A stretch of 64,000 bases of DNA from Collinsella aerofaciens (GTDB taxonomy: Bacteria; Actinomycetota; Coriobacteriia; Coriobacteriales; Coriobacteriaceae): NCBI RefSeq assembly GCF_028206795.1, contig NZ_JAQLFJ010000011.1, positions 1-64,000 on the forward strand. Direction: 5' to 3'. Shown piece after piece: positions 5,979 to 22,414 of this stretch; position 1 is the first letter of the stretch; each line of letters opens with the position of its first letter. Below the pieces are notes generated by a model. It did not search any database. It had not been told where the DNA came from and saw only the letters and a program-made list of their open reading frames with translations. Made by a program: the position numbers and the translations under genes.

Positions 5979-6283
5979 CTTCTAGTTCCCCTCGTAGTCG
6001 TTTGAACGTTCGGGATACTTTAGCACAGTGCAGCGTCAGGCGCGACCGCATCACGGTAAAACTCGAGTGCGCCGCTATGATTTACAGGATGGTTACATGG
6101 GGGAGGGCTTAGCTCGAGGCTCGCATCCGATCCGTCTCGGCCTTCACTCTATGTTGAGTGTAGCGGAGGGTGGGGACAGATTCACAAGCGCGCCTGTCTG
6201 ACAAGTGTGATTTGGGGCGATCTCGTCAAAGCTGCTGAGCTGAGAAAATAACCGTTAACCGGATTAAATTTTGTTACTCAACA

Positions 6284-6327
6284 TTTGACACTCTGTGCGT
6301 GGTAACTTTTTTACCAACAGGTATGAT
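6284..6327 (+). promoter_or_regulatory. Candidate BREX promoter and operator region
   Basis: In the 427-base gap between serC and brxA. TTGACA (6284-6289) and TATGAT (6322-6327) both resemble sigma-70 hexamers, but they are too far apart (32 bases) to be one promoter. Between them is a perfect dyad, TGGTAA-N5-TTACCA (6300-6316), that could bind a regulator. No regulator gene of the BrxR/WYL type lies next to the locus. Confidence 0.35.
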
Positions 6328-6332
6328 TAATG

Positions 6333-6374
6333 ACAAGTGCGCCGCGCCTGCCTGCTGGGCCGCGGCGCACTTGT
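6333..6374 (+). promoter_or_regulatory. Strong hairpin in the brxA leader
   Basis: A perfect 14-bp inverted repeat (ACAAGTGCGCCGCG pairing with CGCGGCGCACTTGT) with a 14-base loop. It lies 20 bases before the GGAG ribosome binding site and lacks a T-run, so it is unlikely to be a plain terminator. It may be a leader structure affecting translation or mRNA stability, or a protein-binding site. Confidence 0.55.
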
Positions 6375-6430
6375 GACAGCCTTTGACACCCTTGGAGCGT
6401 GTACTGTGGATGTAACCACAAAAAGCGTTC

Positions 6431-6440
6431 GGGGGGGGGG
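6431..6440 (+). repeat. Run of ten G at the brxA start
   Basis: A G10 homopolymer, the longest G run I noticed in the window, overlaps the first base of the GTG start codon at 6440. Upstream is a well-placed alternative start: GGAG at 6394-6397, eight bases, then GTG at 6406. With ten G that upstream frame ends at TGA (6469-6471); with nine or twelve G it reads straight into brxA. This is the arrangement of a slipped-strand phase-variation switch. The count could also be a sequencing or assembly error. Confidence 0.75.
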
Positions 6441-7090
6441 TGCTCACCCGCGAGCAATTCCTCCCGCATGAGATGCGCATCGTCGCTGCCCTTCGTATGC
6501 AGGGCGCAAGTGACGAGCAGGTCATTGTACGCGTAAAGAGCGAGAACCTCTTTCAATATCCCACGGAGCGCATGGTCGCCAACCGCGCAACCGTGTGCCT
6601 TCGCCGCCTTGACGCCATGGTGCCCACGGACGCCGTATGCGCCGCGCGCGGCATCGACCCCAAAACCGCCGTCGAGGCTGCGTCATCCCTAGCCAGGCTC
6701 ATGGCATCCGGCACTCCCACGCAGGCGGACCAGGCCATCTTCTACAGCATGATCTGCCGCTACGATATCGTGCGCGAGCTCGTGCTCGTCGAGGTAGGGG
6801 AGCGCCTACAAAATTTCGATTATGCCTTTACGGCGGTTGACCTCAACGCCTTTATGACACGCTTTACCACGGAGTATCCGGACGCGGCCCGCTGGACTGA
6901 GGCCACGGTCAAGCGCATTAAGGGCTCGCTCCGCCAGACGCTCCGCCATGCCGGCCTTATCGGCGAGGGCCAGGGCCCGGAGTCCGAGCGCCTGTCACCA
7001 CTCTTCCTCGATTCCGATGTCGAGCGAGCCTTGGTTCAGCTGGGCGAGCAGTCGCTTATCGCGGCCCTTACCGGCAGGGCGGTGATGTAG
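6440..7090 (+). CDS. brxA: BREX protein BrxA (DUF1819), start in a G tract
   Basis: First gene of the BREX type 1 locus. BrxA is a small helical DNA-binding protein of the DUF1819 family; its exact role in phage exclusion is unsettled. The 216 residues show the family pattern: LTREQFLPHEMRIVAALRMQG at the start, the SENLFQYPTERMV segment, and YDIVRELVLVEVG in the middle. As annotated, translation starts at GTG 6440 inside the G tract and has no ribosome binding site. Homologues usually have about ten residues before the LT position. Starting at GTG 6406 with nine G would supply them (MDVTTKSVRGGV then LTREQF), so the sequenced version is probably out of frame or poorly translated. ATG 6473 is another possible internal start. 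The stop is one base from the brxB start, so translation may be coupled. Confidence 0.88.
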   Translation: MLTREQFLPHEMRIVAALRMQGASDEQVIVRVKSENLFQYPTERMVANRATVCLRRLDAMVPTDAVCAARGIDPKTAVEAASSLARLMASGTPTQADQAIFYSMICRYDIVRELVLVEVGERLQNFDYAFTAVDLNAFMTRFTTEYPDAARWTEATVKRIKGSLRQTLRHAGLIGEGQGPESERLSPLFLDSDVERALVQLGEQSLIAALTGRAVM

Positions 7091-7091
7091 C

Positions 7092-7784
7092 GTGGCTCCC
7101 GTCAAAAGCGCCGTCGACCCTGTTATCACCCCGGCGACGGATCTCACCACCAATATCGGCATCCATTCCCGCAAGAGCGTCGTGGCGGCGCATGCCCGCT
7201 CTCAGCACGCCTGTCAGGAATTTGAGCGCCGTGCGCAGCTTCTGCGCGAGTGCCTGTGCAGCGAGGACTTTTTGGCCAACAAGGGCATAGGCAATGAGAT
7301 CGGCTTCCACACTTTTTGCTATGACCCCGCGCTGGAGTTTGAGGCGCGTGCATTATTTGACACCCTTTCACGCGATGCCGAGGCCGACAAGCTTCCGTGC
7401 ACGCTCAAGGTCGTGAACCTTTACGACGCCGTGCTGGCAATTCTCGAAAAGCGCCGTGTCCTCAAGGCTATCCCGCACCAAGAGGAGCGCCGCGGTACCC
7501 AACGCGTGCTCGAGGACGTGGCCAAGTTCGCCTCGCCCGAGAAAGTTGCCGCGTACATCCTTGAGCAGACCGAGCCGTTCGCGCCCGGAGACGTCATTCT
7601 CCTCACCGGCGCGGGCGAGGTTTTCCCGTTCTTTCGCATGCACACGCTTCTCCACTGCATGCTTGCGGATTTTGATGAGGTGCCTGTGGTCGCCGCCTAT
7701 CCGGGCAGTTTCAACGGCTCTTCTTTCCAGCTCTTTAACCGTCTGCCGGCCGACAACTACTACCGCGCCATCGATATCTCGTAA
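7092..7784 (+). CDS. brxB: BREX protein BrxB (DUF1788)
   Basis: Second BREX gene, 230 residues, DUF1788 family. The family signature is clear in the C-terminal half: ILLTGAGEVFPFFRMHTLL, then VPVVAAYPGSF, then LFNRLPADNYYRAIDI at the end. The segment FLANKGIGNEIGFHTFCYDP (from about residue 60) matches the usual family N-terminus, so the first 50 or so residues are an extension and the true start may be internal. In E. coli BREX, BrxB is needed for methylation and defence, probably bridging PglX and PglZ. GTG at 7092 follows the brxA stop by one base. A shift of the brxA frame could therefore lower brxB expression through uncoupling or polarity. Confidence 0.9.
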   Translation: MAPVKSAVDPVITPATDLTTNIGIHSRKSVVAAHARSQHACQEFERRAQLLRECLCSEDFLANKGIGNEIGFHTFCYDPALEFEARALFDTLSRDAEADKLPCTLKVVNLYDAVLAILEKRRVLKAIPHQEERRGTQRVLEDVAKFASPEKVAAYILEQTEPFAPGDVILLTGAGEVFPFFRMHTLLHCMLADFDEVPVVAAYPGSFNGSSFQLFNRLPADNYYRAIDIS

Positions 7785-7862: not shown

Positions 7863-10800
7863 ATGGACAACACGATCATTCGCGACCTCTTTGCAAAAGA
7901 CATCAACCGCTCCATCAACGGCGTGGTCAAGGTCCAGGATTCAAAAGATGGGTCCATCCGCCAAGAGCTTGACGAGTACGTGGTGACGCGCGAGTTGCAG
8001 AGGCACTTTGCCACGTTCTTCAAGGCCTACGGCGATGCCATCAATGTGCGCACCGACAAGATCGGCGTGTGGATCAGCGGTTTCTTCGGTTCCGGTAAAT
8101 CGCACTTCCTCAAGATGCTGAGCTACCTGCTAGAGAATCGCCAGATCGGCGGTAAGAGCGCCATCCGCTACTTTGACGGCAAGATCGTCGACCCCATGGT
8201 CGCGGCGGCCATGGAGCGCGCCTGTTCGGTGCCCACGCAGGCCATCCTCTTTAACATCGATAGTAAGGCGGGCCAGTGGAAGCAGGGCGATACGGCTCCC
8301 ACGGCGCTGCTTCGCGGCTTTGAGCGCATGTTCTACGAGGCGCGCGGCTTCTACGGCGAGGACCTCAAGCTTGCAAAGCTCGAGGACTACATCGATTCCC
8401 TGGGCAAGACCCAGGAGTTCCGCGAGGCCTTTGAGCGCGTCAACGGCGAGTCCTGGCTCCAGACCCGCGACACCTACAGCTACTTTGAGGACGACGTGGT
8501 CGAGGTGCTGCAGAGCGTGCTCGGCATGAGCGAAAAGGCCGCATGGAACTGGCTCGAGGGTTCTGAGGACGAGGTTTTGGCCCCCGATGTTTTTGCCAAA
8601 AAGGTCAAGGACTACGTAGACGCTCGGGCAGCGGCCCACGGCGGCAACTTCCGTTTGCTCTTTATGGTCGATGAGGTGGGTCAGTTTATTACAAACGACA
8701 AGGACCCAAGCCTTATGCTGAGCCTTCAGACCATCGTCGAGGAGCTGGGTGCCGCCTGCGGTGGCCGCGTGTGGGTGATGGTCACGAGCCAGGAGGCCAT
8801 CGACAACCTGAGCCTGCCCGTGGGCAACGACTTTTCAAAGATCCAGGGCCGCTTCAATACCCGCCTTTCGCTCTCCAGCTCCAGCGTGGACGAGGTCATC
8901 CAGCGCCGCGTGCTCGAGAAGACCGCGCCGGTGGCCGATATGCTTGCACAGGTCTACGAGCAAGACGCCGCCGTGCTCAAAAACAACTTTACCTTTGAGG
9001 GTGGCTCGCGCTCCGACCTTGCCGGCTACGCCAACTCCAAGGATTTTGTGGCTAGCTACCCGTTTGTGGGCTACCAGTTTAAGCTCCTGCCCGACGTCAT
9101 GACCGAGGTGCGCAAGCACGGTGTCAAGGCCAAGCACATGTCAACGGGCGAGCGCTCCATGCTGAGCGCGTTCCAGGAGAGCGCTCAGGCCATCCAGCAT
9201 GACCGGGCCGGTGCGCTCGTGCCGTTCTGGCGCTTCTTCGATACCATCTCCAAGGACCTGGAGCACGGCATCAACCAGGTGGTCGACCGCGCGGTCCGCG
9301 CGGCCGAGGACGCAAAGGGCCTTGAGCCCTACGACGTTCAGGTGCTCAAGCTCCTGTACTTGATCCGCTACATCGGCTACGTTAAGGCCACGGTCGAGAA
9401 CATCTCCATCTTCATGATCGACGGCCTCGACGTGGACATGCGCGCCCTCAAGGACCGCGTCAAGGAGTCCCTTGCCCGCCTGGAGCGCGAGAACTACGTG
9501 GCACGCCAGGGCGATACTTATAGCTTCCTCACCGACGAGGAGCAGGAGATAGCGCAGGAGATCGCACGCACCCCGATCGATAACGTGCAGGTGATCGAGT
9601 CTATCAAAAAGCGCCTGTTCGACAGCATCTATACCGCGCGCAAACTCAACCGTGGGGCCAATGACTTTCCGTTTGACCGCTATGTGGACGGCTCAATCCA
9701 CGGTACCAGCATGGGCGGCATGGAGCTTTGCGTGGCGACTATGGCGAGCGACCTGGGCCGTGCGGACGATACCGAGCTGGCCTTGGCTTCTTCGGGCAAA
9801 GCCATCGTGGTCTTGAGCGACGAGGCGGATTATTGGGAGACGCTCGTCAACGCCGCCAAGATCCGCAAGTACGCCAAGACGCGAAATCTCCAGGAGCTTC
9901 AGCCGAGTACGCGCCAGATCGTCGAGTCCAAGATGCGCGAGGCGGCTTATAACGAGAAGGAGGCCGATACCCTTTTGAGCGAGGCCGTGCTCCATGCACG
10001 TTGCGCGGTCAACGACCGCATGGTTGAGGTCCGCGCGGCCAAACCCGCCCAGGTCTTTGAGCAGGTGCTGGCGCAGCTGTGCGATGTGGTCTTTGAAAAG
10101 GCCGACTATATCGGCTCGCCGGTCATGAGCGATTCCGATATCCGCTCCACTCTGGCGGGCAACGTTCAAGCGGGGCTCGCTGGCATGGACGCGGGTAACA
10201 CGCGTGCGCTCAAGGAGGTCGAGGACTACCTCAAAGTTCAGCACCAGCGCCACCTGGATACCGCTATGGGCGATATCCAGCGCCAGTACCAGCAAAGGCC
10301 CTTTGGCTGGCGCGAGGTCGACATCGCAAATGTGGTGGCGCAGCTTGTGGTAGAGCAGCGCGCGCAGGTGCTGTTTGGCGGTCAGACGGTTCAAGCTAAC
10401 GACAGCCGCATGGTGGCACTCCTTCGCAAGGATGCCGATAAGGCTCAGGTGCGCTTGCGCATGCGCATGAGCGACCGGTTGCTGCGCGCCACGGGCGAAC
10501 TCATGTGTGACCTGTTTGATCTCAAGACCGTGCCCTCCAACGAGGATAGGCTCGTGGTCGAGCTCAAGGAGCGCCTTGAGGACTTGCGCGAGTCGTGCCT
10601 CGCCATAGCACGCGACTACTATACGGGTATCAAACCGCTCTATCCGTATCCTGGCGAGAGCGAGTGTGAGAAGATGCGCTCGGAGGTGGCCGACGTCCTT
10701 AAGGACCAGAACGAGTCCGAGGCGTTCTTGACCACGTTCACCAAGCATGAGGAGCGCTTGCTCGATGCCAAGGAAGACTTTGACAAGGTGGTTGAATTCT

Positions 10801-11525
10801 TAGAGTCCAACCAACGAACAGCGTTTGACCACGCTAGGGATTTCTTGAGCCGCACCGAGGGTATCGAGTATGCCTCCGATGACATTCCCAGCGCGGTGGA
10901 GAACGTGGCAAAGGTGCGCGAGATCCTCAAAGATCCCAAGCCCTATGGCCGCATTAAAGACCTGCAGCCGCTTATGGATCCCGTTGAGGACGACATAAAA
11001 AAGCTGCTGGGCATCCGCCGCAATGAGTTTTTGTGCCGCATCGAGAGCGATCTGCAAGACCTGCAGGCACAGGCTGAGAGTCAAAAGGGCTTTGTCAATC
11101 AAGCCAAGGATGCCATAGCAGAAGCCGCCGCCAAATACGAGTCGTTCAAAAACCGTGCCCACAGTGCTCAAAGCCTCAACGAGCTGAGTGTTGCCGCGAC
11201 TAACTGGGGCAACTGGATCGTTGCTGCAACCAACAAGATATACGACGCCGTGGATGCGGCCCGCATGCGCATGGACAACGAGCGCCGCACCACTGAGGTC
11301 ACGAGTACGGGTGAGGTGGTCAAGAAGGTCTCCAACAAGGGCGCCGCATCGTCTGCTCCCGTGCCCGCGCCCAAGCCCCAGCGCAAGATCAAGACCGTGC
11401 GCCGCGCCGATCTGGCCAAGCCGAGTCGTCTCTTGTCCGCAGAGGACGTGGAGCGCTATGTGGATGACTTGCGCTCCCGCCTTATGCAGGCACTCGCTGC
11501 AAACGACGAGATCCGTATCAACTAA
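7863..11525 (+). CDS. brxC: BREX ATPase BrxC
   Basis: Large P-loop ATPase of the BREX complex, 1220 residues, the usual size. The N-terminus has the characteristic DLFAKDINRSINGVVKVQD stretch. Walker A is GFFGSGKS (residues 73-80) and the Walker B-like LLFMVDEVGQF is near residue 270. The long remainder is mostly helical with coiled-coil character and ends in a Pro/Ala/Lys-rich linker and a short conserved tail (LLSAEDVERYVDDLR). AAAGGAG lies seven bases before ATG 7863. BrxC is required for methylation and exclusion in studied type 1 systems and is thought to form oligomeric assemblies with BrxB, PglZ and PglX. No frame damage is seen. Confidence 0.95.
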   Translation: MDNTIIRDLFAKDINRSINGVVKVQDSKDGSIRQELDEYVVTRELQRHFATFFKAYGDAINVRTDKIGVWISGFFGSGKSHFLKMLSYLLENRQIGGKSAIRYFDGKIVDPMVAAAMERACSVPTQAILFNIDSKAGQWKQGDTAPTALLRGFERMFYEARGFYGEDLKLAKLEDYIDSLGKTQEFREAFERVNGESWLQTRDTYSYFEDDVVEVLQSVLGMSEKAAWNWLEGSEDEVLAPDVFAKKVKDYVDARAAAHGGNFRLLFMVDEVGQFITNDKDPSLMLSLQTIVEELGAACGGRVWVMVTSQEAIDNLSLPVGNDFSKIQGRFNTRLSLSSSSVDEVIQRRVLEKTAPVADMLAQVYEQDAAVLKNNFTFEGGSRSDLAGYANSKDFVASYPFVGYQFKLLPDVMTEVRKHGVKAKHMSTGERSMLSAFQESAQAIQHDRAGALVPFWRFFDTISKDLEHGINQVVDRAVRAAEDAKGLEPYDVQVLKLLYLIRYIGYVKATVENISIFMIDGLDVDMRALKDRVKESLARLERENYVARQGDTYSFLTDEEQEIAQEIARTPIDNVQVIESIKKRLFDSIYTARKLNRGANDFPFDRYVDGSIHGTSMGGMELCVATMASDLGRADDTELALASSGKAIVVLSDEADYWETLVNAAKIRKYAKTRNLQELQPSTRQIVESKMREAAYNEKEADTLLSEAVLHARCAVNDRMVEVRAAKPAQVFEQVLAQLCDVVFEKADYIGSPVMSDSDIRSTLAGNVQAGLAGMDAGNTRALKEVEDYLKVQHQRHLDTAMGDIQRQYQQRPFGWREVDIANVVAQLVVEQRAQVLFGGQTVQANDSRMVALLRKDADKAQVRLRMRMSDRLLRATGELMCDLFDLKTVPSNEDRLVVELKERLEDLRESCLAIARDYYTGIKPLYPYPGESECEKMRSEVADVLKDQNESEAFLTTFTKHEERLLDAKEDFDKVVEFLESNQRTAFDHARDFLSRTEGIEYASDDIPSAVENVAKVREILKDPKPYGRIKDLQPLMDPVEDDIKKLLGIRRNEFLCRIESDLQDLQAQAESQKGFVNQAKDAIAEAAAKYESFKNRAHSAQSLNELSVAATNWGNWIVAATNKIYDAVDAARMRMDNERRTTEVTSTGEVVKKVSNKGAASSAPVPAPKPQRKIKTVRRADLAKPSRLLSAEDVERYVDDLRSRLMQALAANDEIRIN

Positions 11526-11591
11526 CCCGCGGGGCAACCGGCGCCAAAACGTGCGCCGGTTGCTTATGGCGTTTAGAAAGGCTCATCAACC

Positions 11592-14087
11592 ATGAACGAT
11601 TCTGCTCTTAAGAGCTTCTGCACCTGGGCCCGCACGGAGCTCATCAAAGGCGTTGAGGCGCAGATGGTGCGCTACGGCATCACCGAACCTGCACCTGCGC
11701 CCGCTGGGTCCGAGACCGTCAACAGCCTGCCCCTAAGCCCGGCTGAGGTTGAGCAACGCGATGAACTGCTGCGCATGCAGGCAGAGGTGGGTCACGAGGC
11801 GCTCTGCGACCGAGCGGCCTACACCTGGTTCAACCGCATCGTGGCCATTCGCTTTATGGATGCACGCGGATGGCTCCCCAGCCGCATGCGTATGCTGAGC
11901 CGTGCGGACGGCAGCCATGGTAGCGAGGCCGTGGAGAATGCTCTGGACGTGGAGATAACGACGGCCGATACCGATCGCATAGCCGAGCTCAAAATGGCGG
12001 GCTTGGATGAACCGTTGTGGCGCTACCTGTTTGTTGCTCAGTGCGAGGAGCTTGCCGATTGCCTGCCGGGCGTCTTTGAACGCGTGGGCGGAGCCATGGA
12101 GCTGCTGTTGCCCCAGGGCCTCATGATGGCTGACAGTGTGGTGGGCAAACTCAATGCCGTCCTAGCTGACGAGGACTGGCGCGAGGGCGTGACCGTTCTG
12201 GGCTGGATGTATCAGTATTACAACGCTGACGTTAAAGACGAGTTCTTCAAGTCCAAGCGCAAGGCAGCGGCGGCGGATATCGCACCTGCCACGCAGCTCT
12301 TCACCCCCGAGTGGATCGTGCGCTATATGGTCCAGAACTCGCTCGGCCGTCTGTGGATGCTCAACAATCCGGGGAGTTCGCTGCGCGAGCGCATGGAGTA
12401 CTACATCGAGCCCGACGAGGAGCACGAGGACTTCATCTACATCTCGAGCCCCGAGGAGATCACGCTCTGCGACCCGGCGTGCGGCTCGGGCCATATCTTG
12501 GTCTATGCGTTTGAGCTGCTTTTTGCCATGTACGAGGAGCGCGGCTATCGTGAGCGCGAGATTCCCGAGCTCATTCTTACTAAAAACCTTGCAGGCATGG
12601 AAATCGATTCCCGCGCGGCACAGATCGCGGAGCTGGCGCTTGCCATGTGCGCCCGCGAGCACGACCGTCGCTTCTTTAGGCGTGGCGTTCGCGCCGACGT
12701 TACCGTGCTCTCGAGCATCCCGCTAGGGGAGGACGAGCTGCCGGGTAACAAGAAGCTCGCCGAGGAGCTGAGTCATTTGGGCGAGATCGGTTCGCTGCTC
12801 AATCCTTCAGAGGACGAGATCGACGAGCTCAAGGCTGCCGCCGCGAGTTGTTCCGATGACCTTTTTGCCGCTACGGCCAAAACTAAGCTCGAAAGCGCTG
12901 CCGCCATCTGCGAGAAGCTGTCCCATCGTTTTACCTGCACCGTTGCGAATCCTCCGTATATGGGCAGCAGCAGCTTTAATCCATTCATGAGCAAGTGGAT
13001 CAAGAAGAACTACCCCGACGTGAAGAGCGACCTCTGCACGTGCTTTATCGAGCGCGGTTTTAACCTTGTCGAGGATAAGGGCTACGCCGCAATGGTTACC
13101 ATGCAGAGTTGGATGTTCCTGGGCAGCTTTGAGAAGATGCGCGCCAAGGTTATCGACAACAAGACAATCGTTTCCATGGCCCATCTGGGACCTCGCGCGT
13201 TTGATGCTATCGGCGGCGAGGTCGTCAACGTTACAGCTGACGTGATCTACAACCAGCATTCGGACGCCGAGGGCGCCTATGTGCGCCTTGTTGATATCAA
13301 CGGCTCTGAGGCCAAGAGGCTCAAACTGGTCGAGGCCATCCAAAACCCCGATTGCGGCTGGTTCTACCGCCGCGACGCCGGCACCTTCAAGCAGATTCCC
13401 GGCATCCCCATCGCCTACTGGGCAAGCGACGGACTACTCTCTGCGATGGCTGATGGCGTTAAACTATCTTCGTTCGGAAGAACGTCTAAAGGAATTATCA
13501 CTGGTAAAAATGATAAGTTCATTAGGCTTTGGTGGGAGTGCGCCGTTGGGACTATCGGTTTTTCGTCATCATCTGTATCCGATTTATTTAGTGGCAGAAA
13601 ATGGCACCCCTGCACAAAGGGAGGCTCTTATCGTAAATGGTTCGGTAATCTTGACTCTGTAATTGATTGGTCAAATAACGGTCACAGTGTGTTTGAGTCG
13701 GCCTCGCGTGAAGGAAACCATGCGCAAGATTATTCGGATGAACTGAAATTCAAGCCCGCCATTTCATGGTCGGCGATTACTTCGTCCATCCCTTCGTTTA
13801 GGTATGCGTCCAATTGTCTTTCAGAGCATGCCGGCATGTGCCTTTTTGTTCCTGAGGATAAAATCGGTTATATGTTGTCGCTGCTTAACTCCAGCGTTTC
13901 TAAAGAGTATTTTTCGTTAATCGCTCCAACTCTGAACGTTAACGCTGGTGATGTGGATAAATTTCCCGTCCTACTGAGTTGCTTCAATCTCGTAGACGGG
14001 TTATTTAAGGAAAGCAGAGGATTATCAAAAACCGACTGGGACTCGTTTGAAACCTCCTGGGATTTCAAGCGTCATCCTCTCGTTTAG
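11592..14087 (+). CDS. pglX: BREX adenine methyltransferase PglX, N-terminal part
   Basis: The 831-residue N-terminal part of the type 1 BREX N6-adenine methyltransferase, which marks host DNA as self. The SAM-binding motif DPACGSG starts at D294 and the catalytic NPPY motif is at 453-456. From about residue 617 the protein enters the target-recognition region (FGRTSKGIITGKNDKFIRLWWE); from about base 13440 the DNA becomes visibly AT-rich. It ends in WDSFETSWDFKRHPLV, which in intact PglX proteins (about 1150-1250 residues) is followed directly by the C-terminal domain. Here a stop follows, and that domain is encoded separately at 14930-15898 beyond an inserted gene. The stop TAG overlaps an AGGAG that serves the next gene. 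Whether the two parts rebuild an active enzyme is unknown. Confidence 0.93.
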   Translation: MNDSALKSFCTWARTELIKGVEAQMVRYGITEPAPAPAGSETVNSLPLSPAEVEQRDELLRMQAEVGHEALCDRAAYTWFNRIVAIRFMDARGWLPSRMRMLSRADGSHGSEAVENALDVEITTADTDRIAELKMAGLDEPLWRYLFVAQCEELADCLPGVFERVGGAMELLLPQGLMMADSVVGKLNAVLADEDWREGVTVLGWMYQYYNADVKDEFFKSKRKAAAADIAPATQLFTPEWIVRYMVQNSLGRLWMLNNPGSSLRERMEYYIEPDEEHEDFIYISSPEEITLCDPACGSGHILVYAFELLFAMYEERGYREREIPELILTKNLAGMEIDSRAAQIAELALAMCAREHDRRFFRRGVRADVTVLSSIPLGEDELPGNKKLAEELSHLGEIGSLLNPSEDEIDELKAAAASCSDDLFAATAKTKLESAAAICEKLSHRFTCTVANPPYMGSSSFNPFMSKWIKKNYPDVKSDLCTCFIERGFNLVEDKGYAAMVTMQSWMFLGSFEKMRAKVIDNKTIVSMAHLGPRAFDAIGGEVVNVTADVIYNQHSDAEGAYVRLVDINGSEAKRLKLVEAIQNPDCGWFYRRDAGTFKQIPGIPIAYWASDGLLSAMADGVKLSSFGRTSKGIITGKNDKFIRLWWECAVGTIGFSSSSVSDLFSGRKWHPCTKGGSYRKWFGNLDSVIDWSNNGHSVFESASREGNHAQDYSDELKFKPAISWSAITSSIPSFRYASNCLSEHAGMCLFVPEDKIGYMLSLLNSSVSKEYFSLIAPTLNVNAGDVDKFPVLLSCFNLVDGLFKESRGLSKTDWDSFETSWDFKRHPLV

Positions 14088-14095
14088 GAGTCCAC

Positions 14096-14788
14096 ATGTC
14101 GCAGAAGAAAAAGGCTAACAATAATAAATGCGCACATCCACCTCTTAAGAATGATGTGTCGTGGATAAAACAGGTTCATGAATCGTATAAGGACGATGTC
14201 TCTAAGAAAAAACTACGCATATATTTGCAAAGATTTGTATCCGAATCAGAAGCTATTGATGCTACGAGGCAGACCAATGGGTTTATTACTGATTTGAATA
14301 TTTATACTACTGTTCAGGCAAATGCGTTTCTTGAACAGATGTGTTTCGACAGTGCCGTTAAAACAAGATGGGCATATACCCCTAATGACCTTGCAAAAGC
14401 GGCCCACGAAGCAGGTAGCGATTCATCTGATTTTATTAAACGAGATTACGAGTTTGCCCTCATTTGCTTATCAACAGCGGCTTGTCTTAACAAAAGGATT
14501 GCTGGGCTTTCAGAATTCAAGCCGGGTGCGAAGACCAAAACAGGCAGGAGAAAACAGAATAAAAGTTCATTTAGAAGACTTGACGCCGTTTTTAGACATC
14601 TGAGGAATGCTCTCGCTCATGGTCAATATTTGCGAGTTGTTAAGCCCGATGGATCAGTGTGGTGGGCTTTGCAGGACGCAAACGGTAAAGGAAACGTCAC
14701 GGCAAGAATGCTACTGAAAGAGGATACGCTTGATGCATGGGTGAATCTGCTCTCGCTAAGAGACAAGAGATATAGAGATAAAAGCTAG
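14096..14788 (+). CDS. HEPN-domain protein inserted within pglX
   Basis: A 230-residue basic protein of a family I cannot name, lying between the two halves of pglX. Its key feature is RHLRNALAHGQY (residues 167-178), which contains R170-N171-x3-H175, the R-x4-H motif with a polar residue after the Arg that defines HEPN domains. Many HEPN proteins are RNases in toxin-antitoxin, abortive-infection and CRISPR systems; others only bind. The N-terminus is Lys/Asn-rich. The AGGAG overlapping the pglX stop gives it a good ribosome binding site eight bases upstream, so it appears to be translated as part of the BREX operon. Its DNA is strikingly AT-rich against GC-rich flanks, a sign of transfer. 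It could be a back-up toxin, a PglX partner, or a passenger. Confidence 0.75.
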   Translation: MSQKKKANNNKCAHPPLKNDVSWIKQVHESYKDDVSKKKLRIYLQRFVSESEAIDATRQTNGFITDLNIYTTVQANAFLEQMCFDSAVKTRWAYTPNDLAKAAHEAGSDSSDFIKRDYEFALICLSTAACLNKRIAGLSEFKPGAKTKTGRRKQNKSSFRRLDAVFRHLRNALAHGQYLRVVKPDGSVWWALQDANGKGNVTARMLLKEDTLDAWVNLLSLRDKRYRDKS

Positions 14789-14929
14789 TAGTTAGAATAG
14801 GTGCGAAATTGCATCGCCTTAGTTCCTCAAGCTTCCTGTACAGCGGGGAGAGCGTTTTAGCGGTTTTTTTGGATACTGCAATCCATTTTTTCGCAGTGGT
14901 TTCCAACAGCAACGAAAGGATGGCCTACC

Positions 14930-15898
14930 ATGGCCACTTTACTTCAAGATAAATATGAGGCTCGCAAGGCCGAGGTCAATGCTCGCTTTGAGCAGCTTCG
15001 CGCTAACGAGGAAGAGCTCAACCGAATCTTTGCCAAGATCTACAACATGGAGGGCGAGGTACCCATCGAGGTCGAGGACAAGTACGTTTCGGTGGCGCGC
15101 ATCTTCGATACCGCAGATGAGATTCCCGAGAGCTATAAGGGCAACAAATACGTGCGTACCAAGCGCGACGAGGTCACCTCGCTCATAAGCTATGCCGTCG
15201 GCTGCATGTTTGGCCGCTATTCGCTGGATGTGGACGGGCTGGTTCTGGCCGATCAAGGCGCCACGGTCGACGACTATTTGGCCAAGATGCCCGATCCCGA
15301 TCACGTGACCTTTATGCCCGATAGCGACAACGTGCTGCCCATTACCGATGACGAGTACTTTGACGACGACATCGTGCGTTACTTTATCGACTTTGTGCGC
15401 ACCGTGTACGGCGAGGAGACGCTCGAGCAGAACCTGGCCTTTATTGCCGAGGCGATCGGCGGCAAGGGTACCTCGCGGGAGGTAATCCGCGCCTACTTTT
15501 TGAAGGACTTCTTTAAGGACCACTGCCAGACCTATAAGAAGCGTCCCATCTACTGGCTGTTCGACAGTGGAAAAAAGAACGGCTTCAAGTGCCTTGTTTA
15601 CATGCATCGCTATCAGCCCGACCTGTTGGCTCGCATCCGCACCGACTATGTGCATGAGCAGCAGGAGCGCTATCGCTCGCAGATCGGCTATGCCAACGAT
15701 GCCCTTGCCAGTGCCGAGCGCGGCGAGCGCGTGCGCTTGGATAAGCGCGTCAAAAAGCTCAACGACCAGCTCAAAGAGACCATTGGCTACGAGGAGAAGC
15801 TGCATCACTTGGCAGACCAGATGATTAAGATCGACCTGGATGACGGCGTCAAGGTCAACTACGCCAAGTTTCAGGATGTGCTGGCAAAGATCAAGTAA
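14930..15898 (+). CDS. pglX: BREX methyltransferase PglX, C-terminal part
   Basis: A 322-residue protein corresponding to the C-terminal domain of type 1 PglX and carrying no methyltransferase motifs. Landmarks are RANEEELNRIFAKIYNMEGE (from about residue 24), SLISYAVGCMFGRYSLD, RPIYWLFDSGKKNGFKCLVY, and MHRYQPDLLARIRTDYVHEQ, a block seen near the end of full-length PglX. The rest is coiled coil (KLNDQLKETIGYEEKLHHLADQ). It has its own start codon and ribosome binding site (GAAAGGATGGCCTACC before ATG 14930), so it is set up for independent translation. Base composition returns to the GC-rich norm here. Together with the N-terminal part it would give 1153 residues, close to a normal PglX. It is therefore either half of a two-subunit enzyme or a relic. 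Confidence 0.88.
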   Translation: MATLLQDKYEARKAEVNARFEQLRANEEELNRIFAKIYNMEGEVPIEVEDKYVSVARIFDTADEIPESYKGNKYVRTKRDEVTSLISYAVGCMFGRYSLDVDGLVLADQGATVDDYLAKMPDPDHVTFMPDSDNVLPITDDEYFDDDIVRYFIDFVRTVYGEETLEQNLAFIAEAIGGKGTSREVIRAYFLKDFFKDHCQTYKKRPIYWLFDSGKKNGFKCLVYMHRYQPDLLARIRTDYVHEQQERYRSQIGYANDALASAERGERVRLDKRVKKLNDQLKETIGYEEKLHHLADQMIKIDLDDGVKVNYAKFQDVLAKIK

Positions 15899-15921: not shown

Positions 15922-18630
15922 ATGCCCAAGATCGATGTAGAAGAACAGCTCAAACTGCGGTTTTTGCAACCGTTGCTCGCATGTATGCCCCGCCGTGTGG
16001 TGGTTTGGCACGATGCGGACGGCGAGTTTGCCCCTGAGTTTGAGCGATTGGCCGCCGAGGGATTCGATGGCGCGGGGACCGATGACGGCGTTATGCCTGT
16101 TCAAGGTGACTTTGAACGCCCGGTGCGATTTATTGAGGCCTGCGAGGGCCGCATGTTTGCCGTCAAGAAGCTAATCAACCGCGATGACCTTGCGAGCGAT
16201 ATCTTGTTGTATCGCCGTTGCCCGCGCGGCAGGCTTGAGGGCGATTGGCTTGCCGATGTTGAGCTGTATGCCGATCAGTTCCAGGCTGACTATCTTTCAC
16301 TTTTGGCCGATCAGCTGGGTATCGAGAATATTGACGCCGTGCGCGAGAGTCTGCGCGAGCACAAGACGTTCTATGATGCCAAGACCCGCTGCGCTAAGTT
16401 TGCCGCGTGTGTTCCGCATGCCTCGGGCGCATCCGATATCGAACTTGGCATCCTTACGGTGATTTTTGGCGGTAAAGAGCCTGGCGACGCGCGGCCCGCG
16501 TTTGTACTGCGCGGCTGTATGACCATGCTGCTGCACGAGGGGCCCGAGGCACTGGCCGAGTTGGCGGACAAGTACTGTGCGCGCGATGTTCTCTCTGCCT
16601 TCATTGTGCGTTGCTATGGGTTTGAGGGGCCGCTGTATGAGCGTGATTCGCTGCTTGCACTGGCATCCCACGTGTTCCTTACGGCGGCATCCACAGCGAT
16701 TCCCGAGGGAGCGCTCAAGGGACTCGAGCGTTTTGTGGCTCCTGCCTATGGTCCCTATTGTCTTGAGGCAGTGCGTACGTGGGACCAGGTTGCCGATGCT
16801 CAGGCTTCGAGCGAGGACCTATTTGAGATCTGCCGTTTGGTAGAGGATGCTCGCGGGCTCTTTGCACGGTTTGAGGCCTTGCCGATCGATGTGCTGGCCT
16901 CGCTTGATGTGTTCCCGTGCGTCAACGAGGCCGTGCTTTCGCAGCTGTTCTGCTCGTTTGCTCAGGGCGCGGACCGTGTTGAGGACGCGCGCACCTTTGC
17001 GGCGCGTCGCTGCGACCTGAGCTGGTACCGCCGTGTCGAGAGCTACTTTGACCTGCTTGTCGCCGTGGCCGATATGTGCGCGTTTAGGCAGGTGCACGCG
17101 GGCGGGTTCCATCTGGCGCAGCCCCAGCAGGTGTGGGATGCCTACACGTCCGATTGGTATGTCATGGACGCTGCCTATCGCCATATGTGCACCGCGTATT
17201 TGCGGGCACGCTCCGTCGAGTGCGATGTGCTCGAGGAACCTGCCCGAGCCGTAGTGGACTGGGCGGAGAATCTCTACAGTAACTGGTTCTTGGCCGATGC
17301 CAATGCATGCTGGGCATCGGCTGCGCAAGGGGAGTGGGCCGATTGCGGCTACATCGAGGGGCCCGAACGACAGGATGAGTTCTACTGGCACGTGCTGCCC
17401 GCCTTTGTGGGCTCTGCCAAAACGAAGGTCGTTATCGTGAGCGACGCGCTGCGCTATGAGGTGGCCCGCGACGTCGCGGCGCTGCTCGAGCGCGAGCGTG
17501 GCGGTAATGTCAAGGTCTCTAGCATGCAGGCGGTCTTTCCCTCCATTACCGAGGTTGGTATGCCCGCGCTGCTGCCACACCAAGCGCTTAAGCTTGCAGC
17601 GGATGGCTCGTTTGTGCTGGCTGACGGCATGCCCACTGCGACGACTCCGCAGCGCGAGGCCGTACTTGCCCACGTTGAGCCCACGGCCCGCGCTTTGCGC
17701 TCGAGCGCATTCCTCAACATGGCGGGAACCGAGCGTAAAGCGCTGCTCAAAGACTCCGAGCTCGTTTATCTCTACCACAACAAGATCGATGCCACGGGCG
17801 AGAAGGCCGCTACGCAGGATGACGTTTTCGATGCCTGCGCGGACGCCGTGGAGGAACTTGCCGCATTGGCGCGACGCGTGTGCACCGACGCTCCGGGCGC
17901 GCGTGTTGTTATAACGGCGGATCATGGCTTTATCTACACGCGTCGGGAACTTAACGAGTGCCAGATGCTCGGCAAGCCAGACCTTCCCTTCCTTGACGCT
18001 CCCGTCATGCACGGCAAACGTCATCTGGTGGTGCCCAACGAGGCCGTGGCCAAGCTTTCGGACGAGGCGCGCGGGGTGTTTGCTGATGTTGACATGGGGC
18101 GTTTGGGTGCCGGCTTTGAGGGGTTTGCCCCGCGTGAGAACGTGCACTTCAAACGACCCGGCGGTACTAACAACTACGTACACGGCGGCATGAGCCTGCA
18201 GGAGCTTTGCGTGCCCGTTATCGGATTTTGGCGTGCGCGCTCGGGTTCCAAGGACTTTGTCGATGCGCGTGCGGCGACGCTGCGCGTACTTAGTGAGGGA
18301 CGCCGAGTGACCAACTCGCTCTTTTCGGTCAATTTGATCCAGGAAGAACCTGCCCAAGGTAAGGTCTTGCCGTGCGAGTACGAGTTGGTGTTTACCGATG
18401 CAAGTGGCAACGAGGTGAGCGATACGGTCAAGGCGCATGCCAACAAGACTTCTGTTAACTCGCAGGAGCGCGTGGTGCATGCCAAGTTTGCGTTGCATGC
18501 AGCGGATGGATTCTCGGCCAAGGGTCCGTACTATCTGGTCTGCCGCGAGCGCGAGACGGGCAAGATCGTTTGGCGCGAGACGTACACCATCGCTGTTTCA
18601 TTTGCCCCCGTTGCTGATTTTGGTTTTTAG
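15922..18630 (+). CDS. pglZ: BREX alkaline-phosphatase-like protein PglZ
   Basis: PglZ, 902 residues, the near-universal core protein of BREX systems, with an alkaline phosphatase-type fold. The metal-site motifs are present: VVIVSDALRYE with D508, and VITADHGFIYTR with D667-H668-G669, followed by the glycine-rich NNYVHGGMSLQE further on. The N-terminal 450 residues are the helical region typical of type 1 PglZ. TAAGGA precedes ATG 15922 at a good distance, and the stop is only a few bases from the brxL ribosome binding site. PglZ proteins have been reported to act as nucleases or phosphodiesterases and to interact with BrxB and PglX. No missing catalytic residue is evident. Confidence 0.95.
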   Translation: MPKIDVEEQLKLRFLQPLLACMPRRVVVWHDADGEFAPEFERLAAEGFDGAGTDDGVMPVQGDFERPVRFIEACEGRMFAVKKLINRDDLASDILLYRRCPRGRLEGDWLADVELYADQFQADYLSLLADQLGIENIDAVRESLREHKTFYDAKTRCAKFAACVPHASGASDIELGILTVIFGGKEPGDARPAFVLRGCMTMLLHEGPEALAELADKYCARDVLSAFIVRCYGFEGPLYERDSLLALASHVFLTAASTAIPEGALKGLERFVAPAYGPYCLEAVRTWDQVADAQASSEDLFEICRLVEDARGLFARFEALPIDVLASLDVFPCVNEAVLSQLFCSFAQGADRVEDARTFAARRCDLSWYRRVESYFDLLVAVADMCAFRQVHAGGFHLAQPQQVWDAYTSDWYVMDAAYRHMCTAYLRARSVECDVLEEPARAVVDWAENLYSNWFLADANACWASAAQGEWADCGYIEGPERQDEFYWHVLPAFVGSAKTKVVIVSDALRYEVARDVAALLERERGGNVKVSSMQAVFPSITEVGMPALLPHQALKLAADGSFVLADGMPTATTPQREAVLAHVEPTARALRSSAFLNMAGTERKALLKDSELVYLYHNKIDATGEKAATQDDVFDACADAVEELAALARRVCTDAPGARVVITADHGFIYTRRELNECQMLGKPDLPFLDAPVMHGKRHLVVPNEAVAKLSDEARGVFADVDMGRLGAGFEGFAPRENVHFKRPGGTNNYVHGGMSLQELCVPVIGFWRARSGSKDFVDARAATLRVLSEGRRVTNSLFSVNLIQEEPAQGKVLPCEYELVFTDASGNEVSDTVKAHANKTSVNSQERVVHAKFALHAADGFSAKGPYYLVCRERETGKIVWRETYTIAVSFAPVADFGF

Positions 18631-18641
18631 GAGTGTGCCCT

Positions 18642-20975
18642 ATGTTTGATAGCCATGACGACGATCTGTGGGAAGTCCCCTCGATTGATGCGGATGTGCC
18701 CGAGCAGGCTGCGGTGCCTACAGGGGTGGCCGTGCCTGCTGCGGAGGCTGAGACTGCCGCGCCCGTTGAAGCTGCCGCGCCCGCCGAGGGTGAATCCTCG
18801 ACCGATGGCTATGACCAGGCCGTGGCCGAGGACCCCGAGGGCGACGGCTACGACATGGATGGGCTGGACGGCAAACTGCTCGAGCACTTTGCTGGCAAGA
18901 TCGTGCGCAAGGACCTGACGGCCCTTATGAAGCGCGGCGCCAACGTGCCCACCTTTGTGCTGGAGTACCTGCTAGGCATGTACTGCTCAACTGACGACGA
19001 GGATGCCGTGGCAGAGGGTTTGGAGCGCATCCGCAGGATCCTCACCGATAACTACGTGCGTCCCGACGAGTCCGAGCGCATTAAGTCCAAGATCCGCGAA
19101 CTGGGCCGCTTTACCATCATCGATAAGGTGACGGCCAAGCTCGACGAGTACAAAGACATTTACGTGGCGTCGTTTGCCAATCTGACCATCGAGCCGTTTG
19201 TGATGCCGGCCGAGTACGTGCGCGACTATTCCAAGATTCTGCAAGGCGGCATTTGGTGCATTATGAGCATCGAGTATCGTCACCCCTTGGATGAGGAAGA
19301 CGAGTTTGGCATGGAGGTCTTTGGCGACGATGCGCCGCGCCGCTCCAAGGCCAAGCGCAAAAAGCGCGGACCCGAGGACTCTCCGTTTAGTGTGGCGTCG
19401 CTCACGCCCATCCAGATGCCCAATCTAGACCTGGATGCCATGGTCGACGAGCGCCAGTACTTTACGCGCGACGAGTGGCTCAACATGCTGCTGCGCTCGG
19501 CTGGCTATGAGCCCAGCGAGCTTTCCGAGAAGGAGCGCCTGCACTTTATCGAGCGCATGGTGCCGCTGATCGAGCGCAACTACAATCTGTGCGAGCTGGG
19601 TCCCCGCGGCACCGGCAAGAGCCATATCTACAAAGAGGTCTCGCCTTACGCCATCTTGCTTTCGGGCGGCCAGACCACTACGGCCAACCTGTTCGGCCGC
19701 ATGAACTCCATGCGCGCCGACCGTGTGGGCTTGGTGGGTCACTGGGACTGCGTGACGTTCGACGAGGTCGCCGGCATGCGCTTTAAGGACACCAATGCCG
19801 TGCAGATCATGAAGGACTATATGGCGAGCGGCAGCTACGCGCGCGGCCGCGACCAGATCAACGCCGATGCCTCCATGGTCTTTGAGGGCAACATCAACGA
19901 CACTGTGCAAAACGTCCTTAAGACCACGCACCTGTTTGATCCGTTCCCGCCGGAGTTTAACAACGATTCGGCTTTTTTCGACCGTATCCATTATTACCTG
20001 CCGGGCTGGGAGATTCCCAAGATGCGCTCGAGTCTGCTGACCGGGCATTACGGCCTGATCACCGACTGCCTGTCGGAGTTTTGCAAGGAGATGCGCCGCA
20101 AGGACTTTACGCACCATATCGACCGGTATTTCCGCTTTAACAGCGACTTTAACAAGCGCGACGAGATCGCCGTGCGCAAGACCTTTAGCGGCCTGGCCAA
20201 GCTGCTGTTCCCCGACGAGGCCATGGACAAGGACGACGTGCGCTGGCTGCTGGACTATGCCATCGAGGGCCGTCGCCGCGTAAAGGAGCAGCTCAAGATT
20301 ATGGCGGGCGTCGAGTTTATCGACGTCAACCTGGGCTATATGGATGCCGACAACCCGCAGGACGTGCATGTGGTGCGCGTGCCCGAGCAGAGCGAGGACA
20401 CGCTGATTCCCGACGGGCCGCTGCTGTCCGGTCACGTGTTTGGCGTGGGCAGATCGCAGGGCGGCGAGGTCGCCGTGTACAAGCTGGAGAACAAGGCCGT
20501 TGCCGGCGAGTGCAAGTTTAAGCACGAGGGCGTGGCCTTTAACAAGCCGGTGCGCGATACGCTGGAGGCCGCGTTCGACAACTTTGTGAACCTGGCGAAC
20601 CGCGTGGCGCCGGGCATGCACATTGGCTCCAAGGACTACCTGCTGTTCTACAACGACTTGCAGAGCAAGGGCCTGTCCGAAGAAGTTTCGCTCGCCGAGT
20701 TTGTGGGCCTGTGCTCCGCGGCCTGCAACCGCCCGGTGATGCCCGCGCTGGCGATTCCTGGAATCTTGCGCATGTCGGGTTCTATGGACGAGATCCGTGG
20801 GCTCGAGGACATTATGCGCGTGGCCAAAAACGCTGGTGCTAAGCGCGTGATTTTGCCGCTGAGCGCCATCGCGGGCCTACAGAGTGTTTCGTCCGAGATT
20901 ATTTCGGGGTTGAGCCCGGTGTTCTACATGGATGGCGACCCGGTCGACGCCGCAAAGAAGGCGCTGGATCTGTAG
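18642..20975 (+). CDS. brxL: BREX Lon-like AAA+ protein BrxL
   Basis: BrxL, 777 residues: an AAA+ ATPase with a Lon-like C-terminal domain that forms rings on DNA and is needed for phage exclusion but not methylation in studied systems. Walker A is GPRGTGKS (residues 320-327), followed by VTFDEVAGM (Walker B-like). The conserved family start, LLEHFAGKIVRKDLTALMKR, begins only near residue 82. Before it is an acidic, Ala/Pro-rich and probably disordered extension that most BrxL proteins (about 680 residues) lack. I chose ATG 18642 because AGGAG lies eight bases upstream; the GTG at 18633 is too close to that site. The gene begins immediately after pglZ, so the two are surely cotranscribed. Confidence 0.95.
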   Translation: MFDSHDDDLWEVPSIDADVPEQAAVPTGVAVPAAEAETAAPVEAAAPAEGESSTDGYDQAVAEDPEGDGYDMDGLDGKLLEHFAGKIVRKDLTALMKRGANVPTFVLEYLLGMYCSTDDEDAVAEGLERIRRILTDNYVRPDESERIKSKIRELGRFTIIDKVTAKLDEYKDIYVASFANLTIEPFVMPAEYVRDYSKILQGGIWCIMSIEYRHPLDEEDEFGMEVFGDDAPRRSKAKRKKRGPEDSPFSVASLTPIQMPNLDLDAMVDERQYFTRDEWLNMLLRSAGYEPSELSEKERLHFIERMVPLIERNYNLCELGPRGTGKSHIYKEVSPYAILLSGGQTTTANLFGRMNSMRADRVGLVGHWDCVTFDEVAGMRFKDTNAVQIMKDYMASGSYARGRDQINADASMVFEGNINDTVQNVLKTTHLFDPFPPEFNNDSAFFDRIHYYLPGWEIPKMRSSLLTGHYGLITDCLSEFCKEMRRKDFTHHIDRYFRFNSDFNKRDEIAVRKTFSGLAKLLFPDEAMDKDDVRWLLDYAIEGRRRVKEQLKIMAGVEFIDVNLGYMDADNPQDVHVVRVPEQSEDTLIPDGPLLSGHVFGVGRSQGGEVAVYKLENKAVAGECKFKHEGVAFNKPVRDTLEAAFDNFVNLANRVAPGMHIGSKDYLLFYNDLQSKGLSEEVSLAEFVGLCSAACNRPVMPALAIPGILRMSGSMDEIRGLEDIMRVAKNAGAKRVILPLSAIAGLQSVSSEIISGLSPVFYMDGDPVDAAKKALDL

Positions 20976-21049: not shown

Positions 21050-22414
21050 ATGGCGGGCGAGCGTTCTGTTGGCGAGCTGCTCGACGAGCTGTTTGGCTTT
21101 GAATCGGTGGCCAAGCGTCAGACGGCGCTTGAGCAGTACGATCGTGGGGAGTTGGTGCGCAAGGCGCGCTCCCGCGAGCTGCTGGGTGTGCTTAGGGGCG
21201 TCGAGGCTGCCGAGCACGCTGCGCGCGACTCTGCCGTGCAGGCTGTTGACGGGTATGTTCGCCGTGTCGAGGGCGCGGCCCTTGCGCGCGCTCGCAAGCA
21301 GGCGGGTGTTGTGGGCCCGCTGCAGATGGAGCGCCGCTATGCTGCCTTTTTGCGTATGGAGGACAAGGCCGAACTGTTGGCCCGCTTGGAGCAGACGCTT
21401 GCGTTTATCGAGGTAAAGCTGCGTGCCAATACGGCGGACAGGGTTCGTGCGGCATACGATGCTGCGGGGGCTTTGGTGTTGCAGGGCGCGGCGCGTCTGA
21501 GTGACGCGCGCGTTGTGGATGCCGCACCCTTGGATGCCGATCTGCTATGCACGCAGCTGGAGCAGCTGCGTTGCACCGCCGATACAACGGACCTTGCCGG
21601 CATGATTACGGCGACGTTTGAGTCCGAGCTGAGTGCGACTGGTCCGCAGCGCGCTGATGGGTTTACGGGCGATTTGGCTGGCGATGTTGCTGGTGACGTG
21701 GCGTTGGAGCGCGAACTTACCAACGTGCGCGGCGCTGCGCAGCGAGCGCGCTTGGCGGCGCAGGCGTATCGGGCCGAGCGCGCCGCCCGCGTTGCGGGGA
21801 GCACGGTGGAGCCGGTATTGTTGCCCGAGCCTTCGTGCGTTGCGTGCGAGACGGCGTGCGATGCCGGTTTGCTTGCCGAGCTGCTCGTTCAGGTTAAGAA
21901 GTCGTTTGAGACCTACCGTCGTGTTGTTGCCGACGGCGGGTTGTTCTGTGCGTTTGGCTCTGGCTCGCCGCATGGGATATGCCGGGGTTCGTGCTATTTA
22001 GACTACGATTCTCGGCTTGACGAAGACGTGCTGGTGGGCGAGTACGATGGCGCTACCAGGCATGATGTTTGCCGTGAGGTTCCGATTCCCGAGCTTGTGG
22101 ATGAGGTTTCGGCCGAGGGCGGCGACTCGCTCGAGGTTGCCGTGGCGCGCATGCGTGAGTTTAATGCGCGCCGCTACGAAGGTGTGCTGGACGAGGACCC
22201 CGCGCGCCATGTGAATGCGTTTTGGTATGGACTCAAAAAGCTCAGCCAGTATTGCGAGGCCGCCGTGCGTGTGGATGAGCGTGCTTGGGATTGCTTTATC
22301 GATAAGGTACAGTTCGCCTACGATGAACCCGTGGGGCGCCTGGCCACGCAGATGGACGACAAGCAGGTTGCGGCTTTTGTTGCTGCCGTGGAAGTGCTCG
22401 GTGCTAGTGAGTAG
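21050..22414 (+). CDS. Unrecognised BREX-operon protein
   Basis: A 454-residue protein I do not recognise. It follows brxL by 74 bases in the same orientation with a strong AAGGAGG site, so it is very likely part of the BREX transcript. The first 260 residues are Ala/Arg/Glu-rich and helical with probable coiled coil (LARLEQTLAFIEVKLRANTA). A cysteine cluster follows (EPSCVACETACDAG), then a second one (HGICRGSCYLDYDSRLDED), and then an acidic region ending in a conserved-looking helical tail. The four to six cysteines could bind zinc. No known accessory BREX protein (BrxD, BrxE, BrxF, BrxHI, BrxHII, BrxU, BrxR) resembles it to my eye. Codon use is like the neighbours. Confidence 0.7.
   Translation: MAGERSVGELLDELFGFESVAKRQTALEQYDRGELVRKARSRELLGVLRGVEAAEHAARDSAVQAVDGYVRRVEGAALARARKQAGVVGPLQMERRYAAFLRMEDKAELLARLEQTLAFIEVKLRANTADRVRAAYDAAGALVLQGAARLSDARVVDAAPLDADLLCTQLEQLRCTADTTDLAGMITATFESELSATGPQRADGFTGDLAGDVAGDVALERELTNVRGAAQRARLAAQAYRAERAARVAGSTVEPVLLPEPSCVACETACDAGLLAELLVQVKKSFETYRRVVADGGLFCAFGSGSPHGICRGSCYLDYDSRLDEDVLVGEYDGATRHDVCREVPIPELVDEVSAEGGDSLEVAVARMREFNARRYEGVLDEDPARHVNAFWYGLKKLSQYCEAAVRVDERAWDCFIDKVQFAYDEPVGRLATQMDDKQVAAFVAAVEVLGASE

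Follow-up and report, generated by a model that had tools for sequence, protein, structure and literature searches.

A two-gene PglX with an exchangeable cargo slot in BREX type 1 operons of the Coriobacteriia

How does a bacteriophage exclusion (BREX) type 1 operon use its methyltransferase, PglX, when this protein is encoded by two genes that are separated by a third? The question is raised by a 64,000-nucleotide stretch of DNA from the gut bacterium Collinsella aerofaciens (NCBI RefSeq assembly GCF_028206795.1, contig NZ_JAQLFJ010000011.1, positions 1 to 64,000; hereafter called the window), in which a gene for a HEPN-like protein occupies the space between the two parts of pglX. The original prediction, made without database searches, described an organised two-part methyltransferase whose intactness might govern, or be monitored by, a HEPN toxin, in what would be a new BREX architecture. 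The conserved two-gene PglX and its exchange slot represent a novel form of BREX type 1, and the HEPN-like protein is one of several interchangeable cargoes. We consider it probable that the variant is a two-chain PglX whose exchangeable cargo slot holds backup effectors.

A divided methyltransferase in a complete BREX operon

The window carries all six core genes of BREX type 1 in one cluster (brxA, brxB, brxC, pglX, pglZ type A and brxL), with pglX present as two genes. All features of the operon reported here are on the forward strand. The first pglX gene, pglX-N (11592..14087), codes for 831 amino acids that match positions 1-899 of the 1210-position BREX-1 PglX model NF033452, and the second, pglX-C (14930..15898), codes for 322 amino acids that match positions 906-1209. 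Thus, the halves cover consecutive parts of a single model, consistent with the prediction that they are adjacent in intact PglX. The open reading frames (ORFs) confirm the ends of all three genes, the PglX-N terminus SWDFKRHPLV and the combined length of 1153 residues.

The domain set of BREX-1 PglX (also called BrxX) and the methyltransferase motifs DPACGSG and NPPY are present across the two ORFs, which take the place of one polypeptide and have a gene between them. PglX-N includes the N-terminal helical domain, the methyltransferase domain with both motifs, the target-recognition domain and the beginning of the helical spacer. PglX-C includes the second spacer helix, a winged helix-turn-helix (wHTH) region, the metal site and the C-terminal helices. 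Solved BrxX/PglX chains align with PglX-N up to chain residue 869-885. The available part of PMC11842806 divides BrxX into an N-terminal domain (1-210), a methyltransferase domain (211-650), a target-recognition domain (651-837) and a C-terminal domain (838-1205), and by these borders the break is located early in the C-terminal domain, within the helical spacer.

Each junction has its own ribosome-binding site, as had been noted: AGGAG (14086..14090) precedes the HEPN gene and overlaps the TAG stop codon of pglX-N, and AAAGGA is located upstream of pglX-C. Another, independent genome (G006) encodes PglX-N, HEPN and PglX-C with 100% identity to those of the window, and therefore the split is not a sequencing error.

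Distribution of the split

In a sample with one genome per species, PglX-C matches were found in 13 of 43 genomes of the genus, at 14 places. Eleven of these are standalone genes (open frames of 323-367 amino acids), two are fused (1155 and 1189) and one is a fragment. At the level of the class, 47 of 396 genomes have a match, at 50 places, including 32 complete standalone genes (one with an internal TAG), 11 open frames of fused size (723-1327) and 7 partial, contig-edge or weak matches. The split is therefore more than a feature of one strain. Across the phylum 16 of 396 genomes match, four of which belong to the genus of the window (three split, one fused), whereas the open frames of the other 12 are all at least 614 amino acids long, with no split. 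Among the best 80 of 539 relatives in a GTDB scan, further splits occur in Bacillota, a Spirochaetales, a Planctomycetia and a metagenome-assembled genome of Proteobacteria.

A tree of 104 rows (49 split, 51 fused and 4 that could not be classed), from which L038 and L148 (internal stop), matches shorter than 230 residues and identical rows were left out, places 34 of the 35 split rows from Coriobacteriia in one group together with two of the unclassed rows (support 95/84); the exception, L156, is a long branch. The distribution of split and fused forms on this tree needs 10 changes, at least 9 of which are forced by supported branches.

A fixed break point with a split-specific signature

In 32 of the 33 loci examined, PglX-N stops exactly 6 residues past its SWDF-type motif, and an insertion sequence (IS) interrupts the sole exception. 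The start of PglX-C is 23 residues ahead of the NEEELN block in 42/42 split rows, where the start and its signature could be counted in 42 of the 49 split rows and 46 of the 51 fused rows. The corresponding SWDF-NEEELN linker of fused enzymes spans 28-106 residues with a median of 30 (46/51 readable). Because 6 plus 23 residues approximate the usual fused linker, the split amounts to a linker that was cut once with almost no loss.

The PglX-C of the window begins with MATLLQDKY (14930..14956), and Lys8 of this MxxLIxDKY-type start is found in all 42 counted split proteins but in none of the 46 counted fused enzymes. Outside the Coriobacteriia, the full signature is present in 9 of 10 split proteins and 0 of 43 fused ones. 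A start signature that is shared by such a scattered trait means that the junction was exchanged horizontally or, alternatively, that there is a strong convergent demand on the start of the helix. Moreover, several permuted loci (L148/L038, L149, L150/L047, L153/L053 and L154) carry the PglX-C gene before the PglX-N gene. A single chain is impossible in this order, which excludes frameshifting or readthrough to a full enzyme in these loci.

Both halves are maintained

Ratios of nonsynonymous to synonymous substitution (dN/dS) in five pairs are 0.07-0.13 for PglX-C and 0.09-0.21 for PglX-N residues 1-520, alongside 0.14-0.17 for brxC and 0.09-0.14 for pglZ. Both halves are under purifying selection in these pairs. 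The AlphaFold2 model of PglX-C (predicted local distance difference test score, pLDDT, 87.1) opens with a helix at residues 5-37 and resembles six solved BrxX/PglX chains (template modelling score, TM, 0.82-0.87; E 1.3e-21 to 2.3e-19), including E. coli BrxX (TM 0.84, E 1.3e-21). The side-chain metal ligands that the available part of PMC11842806 gives for BrxX (D997, D999, D1012 and Y1113) align with D131, D133, D146 and Y240 of the window PglX-C, the same residues at 4/4 positions. The BREX type 1 enzymes of E. coli HS and Salmonella (PDB 9ewz, 8c45 and 8zek) likewise have the same domains in the same order, and both the methyltransferase motifs and the metal-ligand residues are kept. However, the solved proteins are one chain of 1205-1225 amino acids, whereas PglX of the window would be two, separated within the spacer that follows the recognition domain. 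It is likely that the halves assemble in trans. PglX-N and PglX-C would be translated separately and most likely re-form an ordinary PglX by packing their spacer helices against each other.

That the split instead reflects gene decay or an assembly error is extremely improbable. Two loci from outside the Coriobacteriia that were classed as split (L093 and L097) do look like frame breaks, and an IS is present in L023, but the same break point recurs in distant lineages along with purifying selection on both halves and the split-specific start. In addition, 119 of the best 120 of 7991 database matches to PglX-C are 322 amino acids long and the other is 465, although this search accepts only 0.55-1.75 times the query length and is thus blind to fused PglX. 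For the Coriobacteriia, the dN/dS values, the constant break point and the K8 signature refute decay. The prediction of an organised two-part methyltransferase has held up well, since the form is widespread and selected, with a single break point and permuted orders.

The gap between the PglX genes is a cargo slot

Among 28 resolved split loci of the Coriobacteriia, the gap between pglX-N and pglX-C ranges from 719 to 6884 nucleotides and exceeds 300 nucleotides in every case. At the other junctions of Coriobacteriia split loci, gaps of this size are found at brxB/brxC in 0/19, brxC/pglX in 0/25, pglX/pglZ in 7/29 and pglZ/brxL in 0/23. The slot contains a HEPN gene in 17 loci (two families) and a SIR2-like gene, ThsA-like in PADLOC, in two; the other nine are unassigned, helix-turn-helix or IS-disrupted. 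A profile built from 44 relatives in databases matches 15 of the 17 HEPN proteins (E ≤ 3e-5; no other cargo better than 0.39), and the remaining two carry the RiboL-PSP HEPN domain (PF18735). In 16 of these 17 loci, no other gene comes between PglX-N and HEPN, and in L021 HEPN starts about 600 nucleotides further on; in the permuted locus L193, it likewise follows PglX-N. One public Collinsella aerofaciens record annotates the region as pglX, two 'hypothetical protein' genes (the slot gene and PglX-C) and pglZ.

In the window, the cargo gene (14096..14788) is followed by an intergenic stretch (14789..14929) that, in a comparison of nine loci, varies along with the cargo. No conserved recombination site upstream of pglX-C was found in these nine loci, where conserved sequence appears only just before the start codon. 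Promoter and terminator scans within the operon gave matches at chance level only, and the RNA fold of the gap is unremarkable (z -0.67).

Large proteins of 782-1205 amino acids precede PglX-C in the long slots of L024 (6407-10024), L021 (6802-9492) and L034 (4275-6623), and they have no Pfam match at E ≤ 0.01. ORFs that resemble DUF3800 by eye, with ELSIFVDESG-type starts, lie on the opposite strand inside the slots of L022, L023 and L024.

Outside the Coriobacteriia, cargo of split loci includes HEPN (L048 and L054), DUF2971 (L045 and L056) and DUF559 (L066 and L082). Fused loci appear to offer a comparable position behind pglX: among 47 from outside the Coriobacteriia, the gap exceeds 300 nucleotides at pglX/pglZ in 29/43 and at brxC/pglX in 12/37, and the 48 ORFs scanned in the pglX-pglZ slot of fused loci include Schlafen, Fic, PtuA-like and other genes. 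It is a serious possibility that HEPN and the other cargoes are passengers from a defence island that have settled at a safe, transcribed site and have no interaction with BREX. The diversity and swapping of the cargo fit this explanation, as do the occupied gaps of fused loci. Accessory genes at the same place in Salmonella BREX have no effect on methylation, according to the part of PMC9009780 that is available. However, the recurrence of HEPN in the Coriobacteriia and the overlap with the pglX-N stop codon, or the short distance from it, suggest at least co-expression.

The HEPN-like protein

The cargo protein of the window has 230 amino acids and matches the profile of 44 relatives with E 1.3e-10. 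The predicted RNALAH sequence (14603..14620) was confirmed at residues 170-175, and R170, N171 and H175 of this putative HEPN catalytic motif are the only invariant columns among 63 relatives, in agreement with the R-x4-6-H pattern of HEPN domains; 13 of the 63, taken from loci, had been chosen partly by the motif itself. Twelve of these relatives match the pEK499_p136 family (PF18736) at E ≤ 0.01, the best with 4.3e-7. In PADLOC the protein has a weak CARF_HEPN match only (E 0.0057). An MNT antitoxin gene does not adjoin the HEPN gene, whose neighbors are the PglX halves. A profile comparison of the two slot HEPN families found no similarity (probability 0.5%).

The profile has some circularity. 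Its 44 members were found with alignment A2, a set of slot proteins chosen partly by an RNxxxH motif, and one member (P0128) is probably the protein of L142 itself, so that the profile is not independent of L142 and L021. Its E-values refer to a scored set of a few dozen cargo proteins. The frame-shifted sequences P0002 and P0003 and the short matches P0172 and P0173 were left out of alignment A3.

In the class sample, the family occurs at 30 places in 29 of 396 genomes. Of the 28 places examined, 16 are in the PglX slot or behind PglX-N, including one about 600 nucleotides behind it (G012) and one whose PglX-N lies beyond the contig end (G064), and 12 are elsewhere; the share in the slot is biased upwards because the query was built from slot proteins. 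Away from PglX, the family is in several loci accompanied by genes that, by eye, we take to be a type III restriction-modification-like pair (L188), SPFH/zinc-ribbon-like genes (L189, L190, L198, L199 and L200) and an RloA/RloB-like pair (L192). HEPN and the small SPFH-like and zinc-ribbon-like gene sets are perhaps another defence module.

The candidate rule that HEPN occurs only in split loci was rejected. Two HEPN profiles found no match in 51 fused loci, yet a RiboL-PSP HEPN and a Swt1-like HEPN were each recognised once by Pfam in the 48 ORFs of the fused pglX-pglZ slot. Only matches to the pEK499-like profile, at E ≤ 1e-3, are confined to split loci.

Cargo and recognition domain are exchanged independently

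The recognition domain of PglX-N is also variable. In a comparison of seven close loci, the variable region covers residues ~600-820 (13389..14051 in the window, low in GC from ~13300), and the GC fraction drops from 0.55-0.63 to 0.39-0.50 between 13300 and 14900, a segment that corresponds to the recognition domain plus HEPN. Alleles whose PglX-N residues 1-600 are 83-97% identical have recognition regions that are only 31-47% identical. Three pairs among the seven loci have a recognition domain in common (L017/L028, 91%; L018/L019, 88%, where a single block differs; L020/L032, 97%), and the cargo differs within each of these pairs. Conversely, L019 and L028 have the same cargo but different recognition domains (34%).

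Measured in 60-nucleotide windows, identity in the three pairs is at least 83-87% just before the PglX-N stop codon, falls to 27-55% in the cargo, and is again at least 90% within about one such window of the PglX-C start. The HEPN genes of L019 and L028 are 72-88% identical over the first 240 nucleotides and 100% identical thereafter, which points to recent recombination within the cargo. Thus, cargo and recognition domain are exchanged independently, which argues against a PglX-HEPN pair that is matched in specificity. On the evidence of these seven loci, pairing of HEPN with a specific recognition domain was rejected. The specific partnership that had been proposed for PglX and HEPN is further disfavored by the 11 of 28 slots with other cargo.

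One version of that partnership is that assembled PglX-N/PglX-C holds HEPN inactive and releases it when PglX is attacked or falls apart. PrrC with EcoprrI and PARIS with Ocr provide analogies, and HEPN genes do lie close behind PglX-N, even in the permuted L193. We nevertheless find this explanation unlikely, given that cargo swaps do not follow those of the recognition domain, that SIR2-like or unassigned genes replace HEPN in the same slot, and that the same HEPN family exists away from PglX. It fits only if HEPN contacts conserved parts of PglX. Control of HEPN by PglX is possible, but it is not indicated.

Might the split serve to switch specificity? PglX-C could be a shared subunit for interchangeable cassettes of PglX-N and its recognition domain, which would make the cargo secondary. 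The swapped recognition domains of close loci, the N-C-N gene order of L051 and the permuted loci L038/L148, in which PglX-C and PglX-N are followed by an inverted second 3' part of PglX-N, are consistent with this idea. The L038 locus (8914-14689) includes PglX-C with an in-frame stop, PglX-N, a 170-amino-acid ORF and the inverted 3' half (13313-14689, minus strand), and has inverted repeats at 11268-11396 and 14465-14593 (129 nucleotides, 79%) and a further repeat of 29 nucleotides (90%). The inverted half resembles a recognition cassette that is either silent or able to invert. However, tblastn searches of the first 24 kb of the window and of N..C stretches of up to ~20 kb from Coriobacteriia, with the rest of the genomes unsearched, found no second PglX-N copy, and we are doubtful that switching is the main role of the split. 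More speculative still is an obligate two-subunit PglX in which PglX-C, with its split-specific start, acts as a shared platform for interchangeable recognition subunits and the slot effector (HEPN, SIR2 or another) is held by contact with the conserved spacer, to be freed when the chains separate. If this rather improbable scheme were true, the junction would be an evolved device and BREX would gain an exchangeable fail-safe.

We return to the stably two-chain PglX with a slot for backup effectors. In the Coriobacteriia, these effectors would mostly be pEK499_p136-like HEPN proteins and sometimes RiboL-PSP HEPN or SIR2-like proteins, encoded behind PglX-N in the gap that serves as the cargo slot of the operon. 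The cargo is probably swapped by homologous recombination, with the PglX-N stop and the PglX-C start as borders and independently of the target-recognition domain. HEPN would most likely be a last-resort RNase that causes abortive infection when BREX fails.

Several observations somewhat dampen our enthusiasm for this model. A recognised HEPN is missing from 11 of the 28 slots, and PglX-N itself is disrupted in two of these loci, by an IS in L023 and by an insertion in L136. Split loci outside the Coriobacteriia have gaps above 300 nucleotides as often at pglX/pglZ (8/12) as between the PglX genes (8/12), so the slot is less exclusive there, and the other four N/C gaps are 67-147 nucleotides, some of which resemble frame breaks. 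The window HEPN has no Pfam HEPN match at E ≤ 1, and its AlphaFold2 model (mean pLDDT 75.7) gave no PDB match in a structure search. Some metagenome relatives (P0002 and P0003, 10 of 315 members of clusters P0001-P0003) look frame-shifted by eye, suggesting that HEPN can be dispensable. Binding and methylation by the PglX halves are predictions.

Other features of the operon and its flank

The remaining operon genes are readily assigned. These are brxA (6440..7090; Pfam BrxA, 6.5e-33), brxB (7092..7784; Pfam BrxB, 2.6e-31), brxC (7863..11525; NF033441, 1067.8 bits), pglZ type A (15922..18630; TIGR02687, 409.8 bits) and brxL (18633..20975; TIGR02653, 853.5 bits). Directly 3' of brxL, a protein of 454 amino acids (21050-22411) is without a match at E ≤ 1 in Pfam, PADLOC and NCBIfam; it is kept after brxL at 88-92% identity in 8 of 15 relative loci and may be part of this BREX system. 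Farther downstream, two 273-nucleotide copies (80%) at 22655-22927 and 25819-26091 bear inverted 18-mers of the CTAAGTGAGTAGACTTTT type. These 18-mers, often in facing pairs about 105 nucleotides apart, occur in 5-13 copies in each of six related genomes, and a reversed control gave 0.

Relation to known systems and significance

HEPN genes inside Pgl/BREX operons have been published, as seen in the available parts of PMC3710099 (2013) and PMC12839542 (2026). Those proteins are likewise of the pEK499_p136 type, share an operon with PglX and PglZ, and are viewed as suicide or backup effectors. Neither a divided PglX nor an insertion site within it is described in the available parts of these two texts, in which the word 'split' does not appear. 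In fused Salmonella BREX, accessory genes between pglX and pglZ (ATPase/DUF4435; PMC9009780, available part) are also located just 3' of PglX and are dispensable for methylation; their slot follows the C-terminal part of PglX, whereas that of split loci precedes it. Our literature searches, mostly of open-access main texts, found no description of a split PglX. Thus, the claim of a new BREX architecture stands for the split PglX and its slot but not for HEPN in BREX or Pgl operons.

Type I restriction-modification systems have separate HsdM and HsdS subunits and swap recognition modules between conserved helical spacers. In split PglX, methyltransferase and recognition domain remain on one chain, and it is the C-terminal part, with spacer and wHTH, that has become separate.

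The methyltransferase is the center of self/non-self discrimination in BREX. The precise and widespread natural split offers a ready two-piece enzyme for probing the C-terminal part of PglX and the way in which the parts of the enzyme govern modification and restriction, and the slot is a place to seek new effectors.

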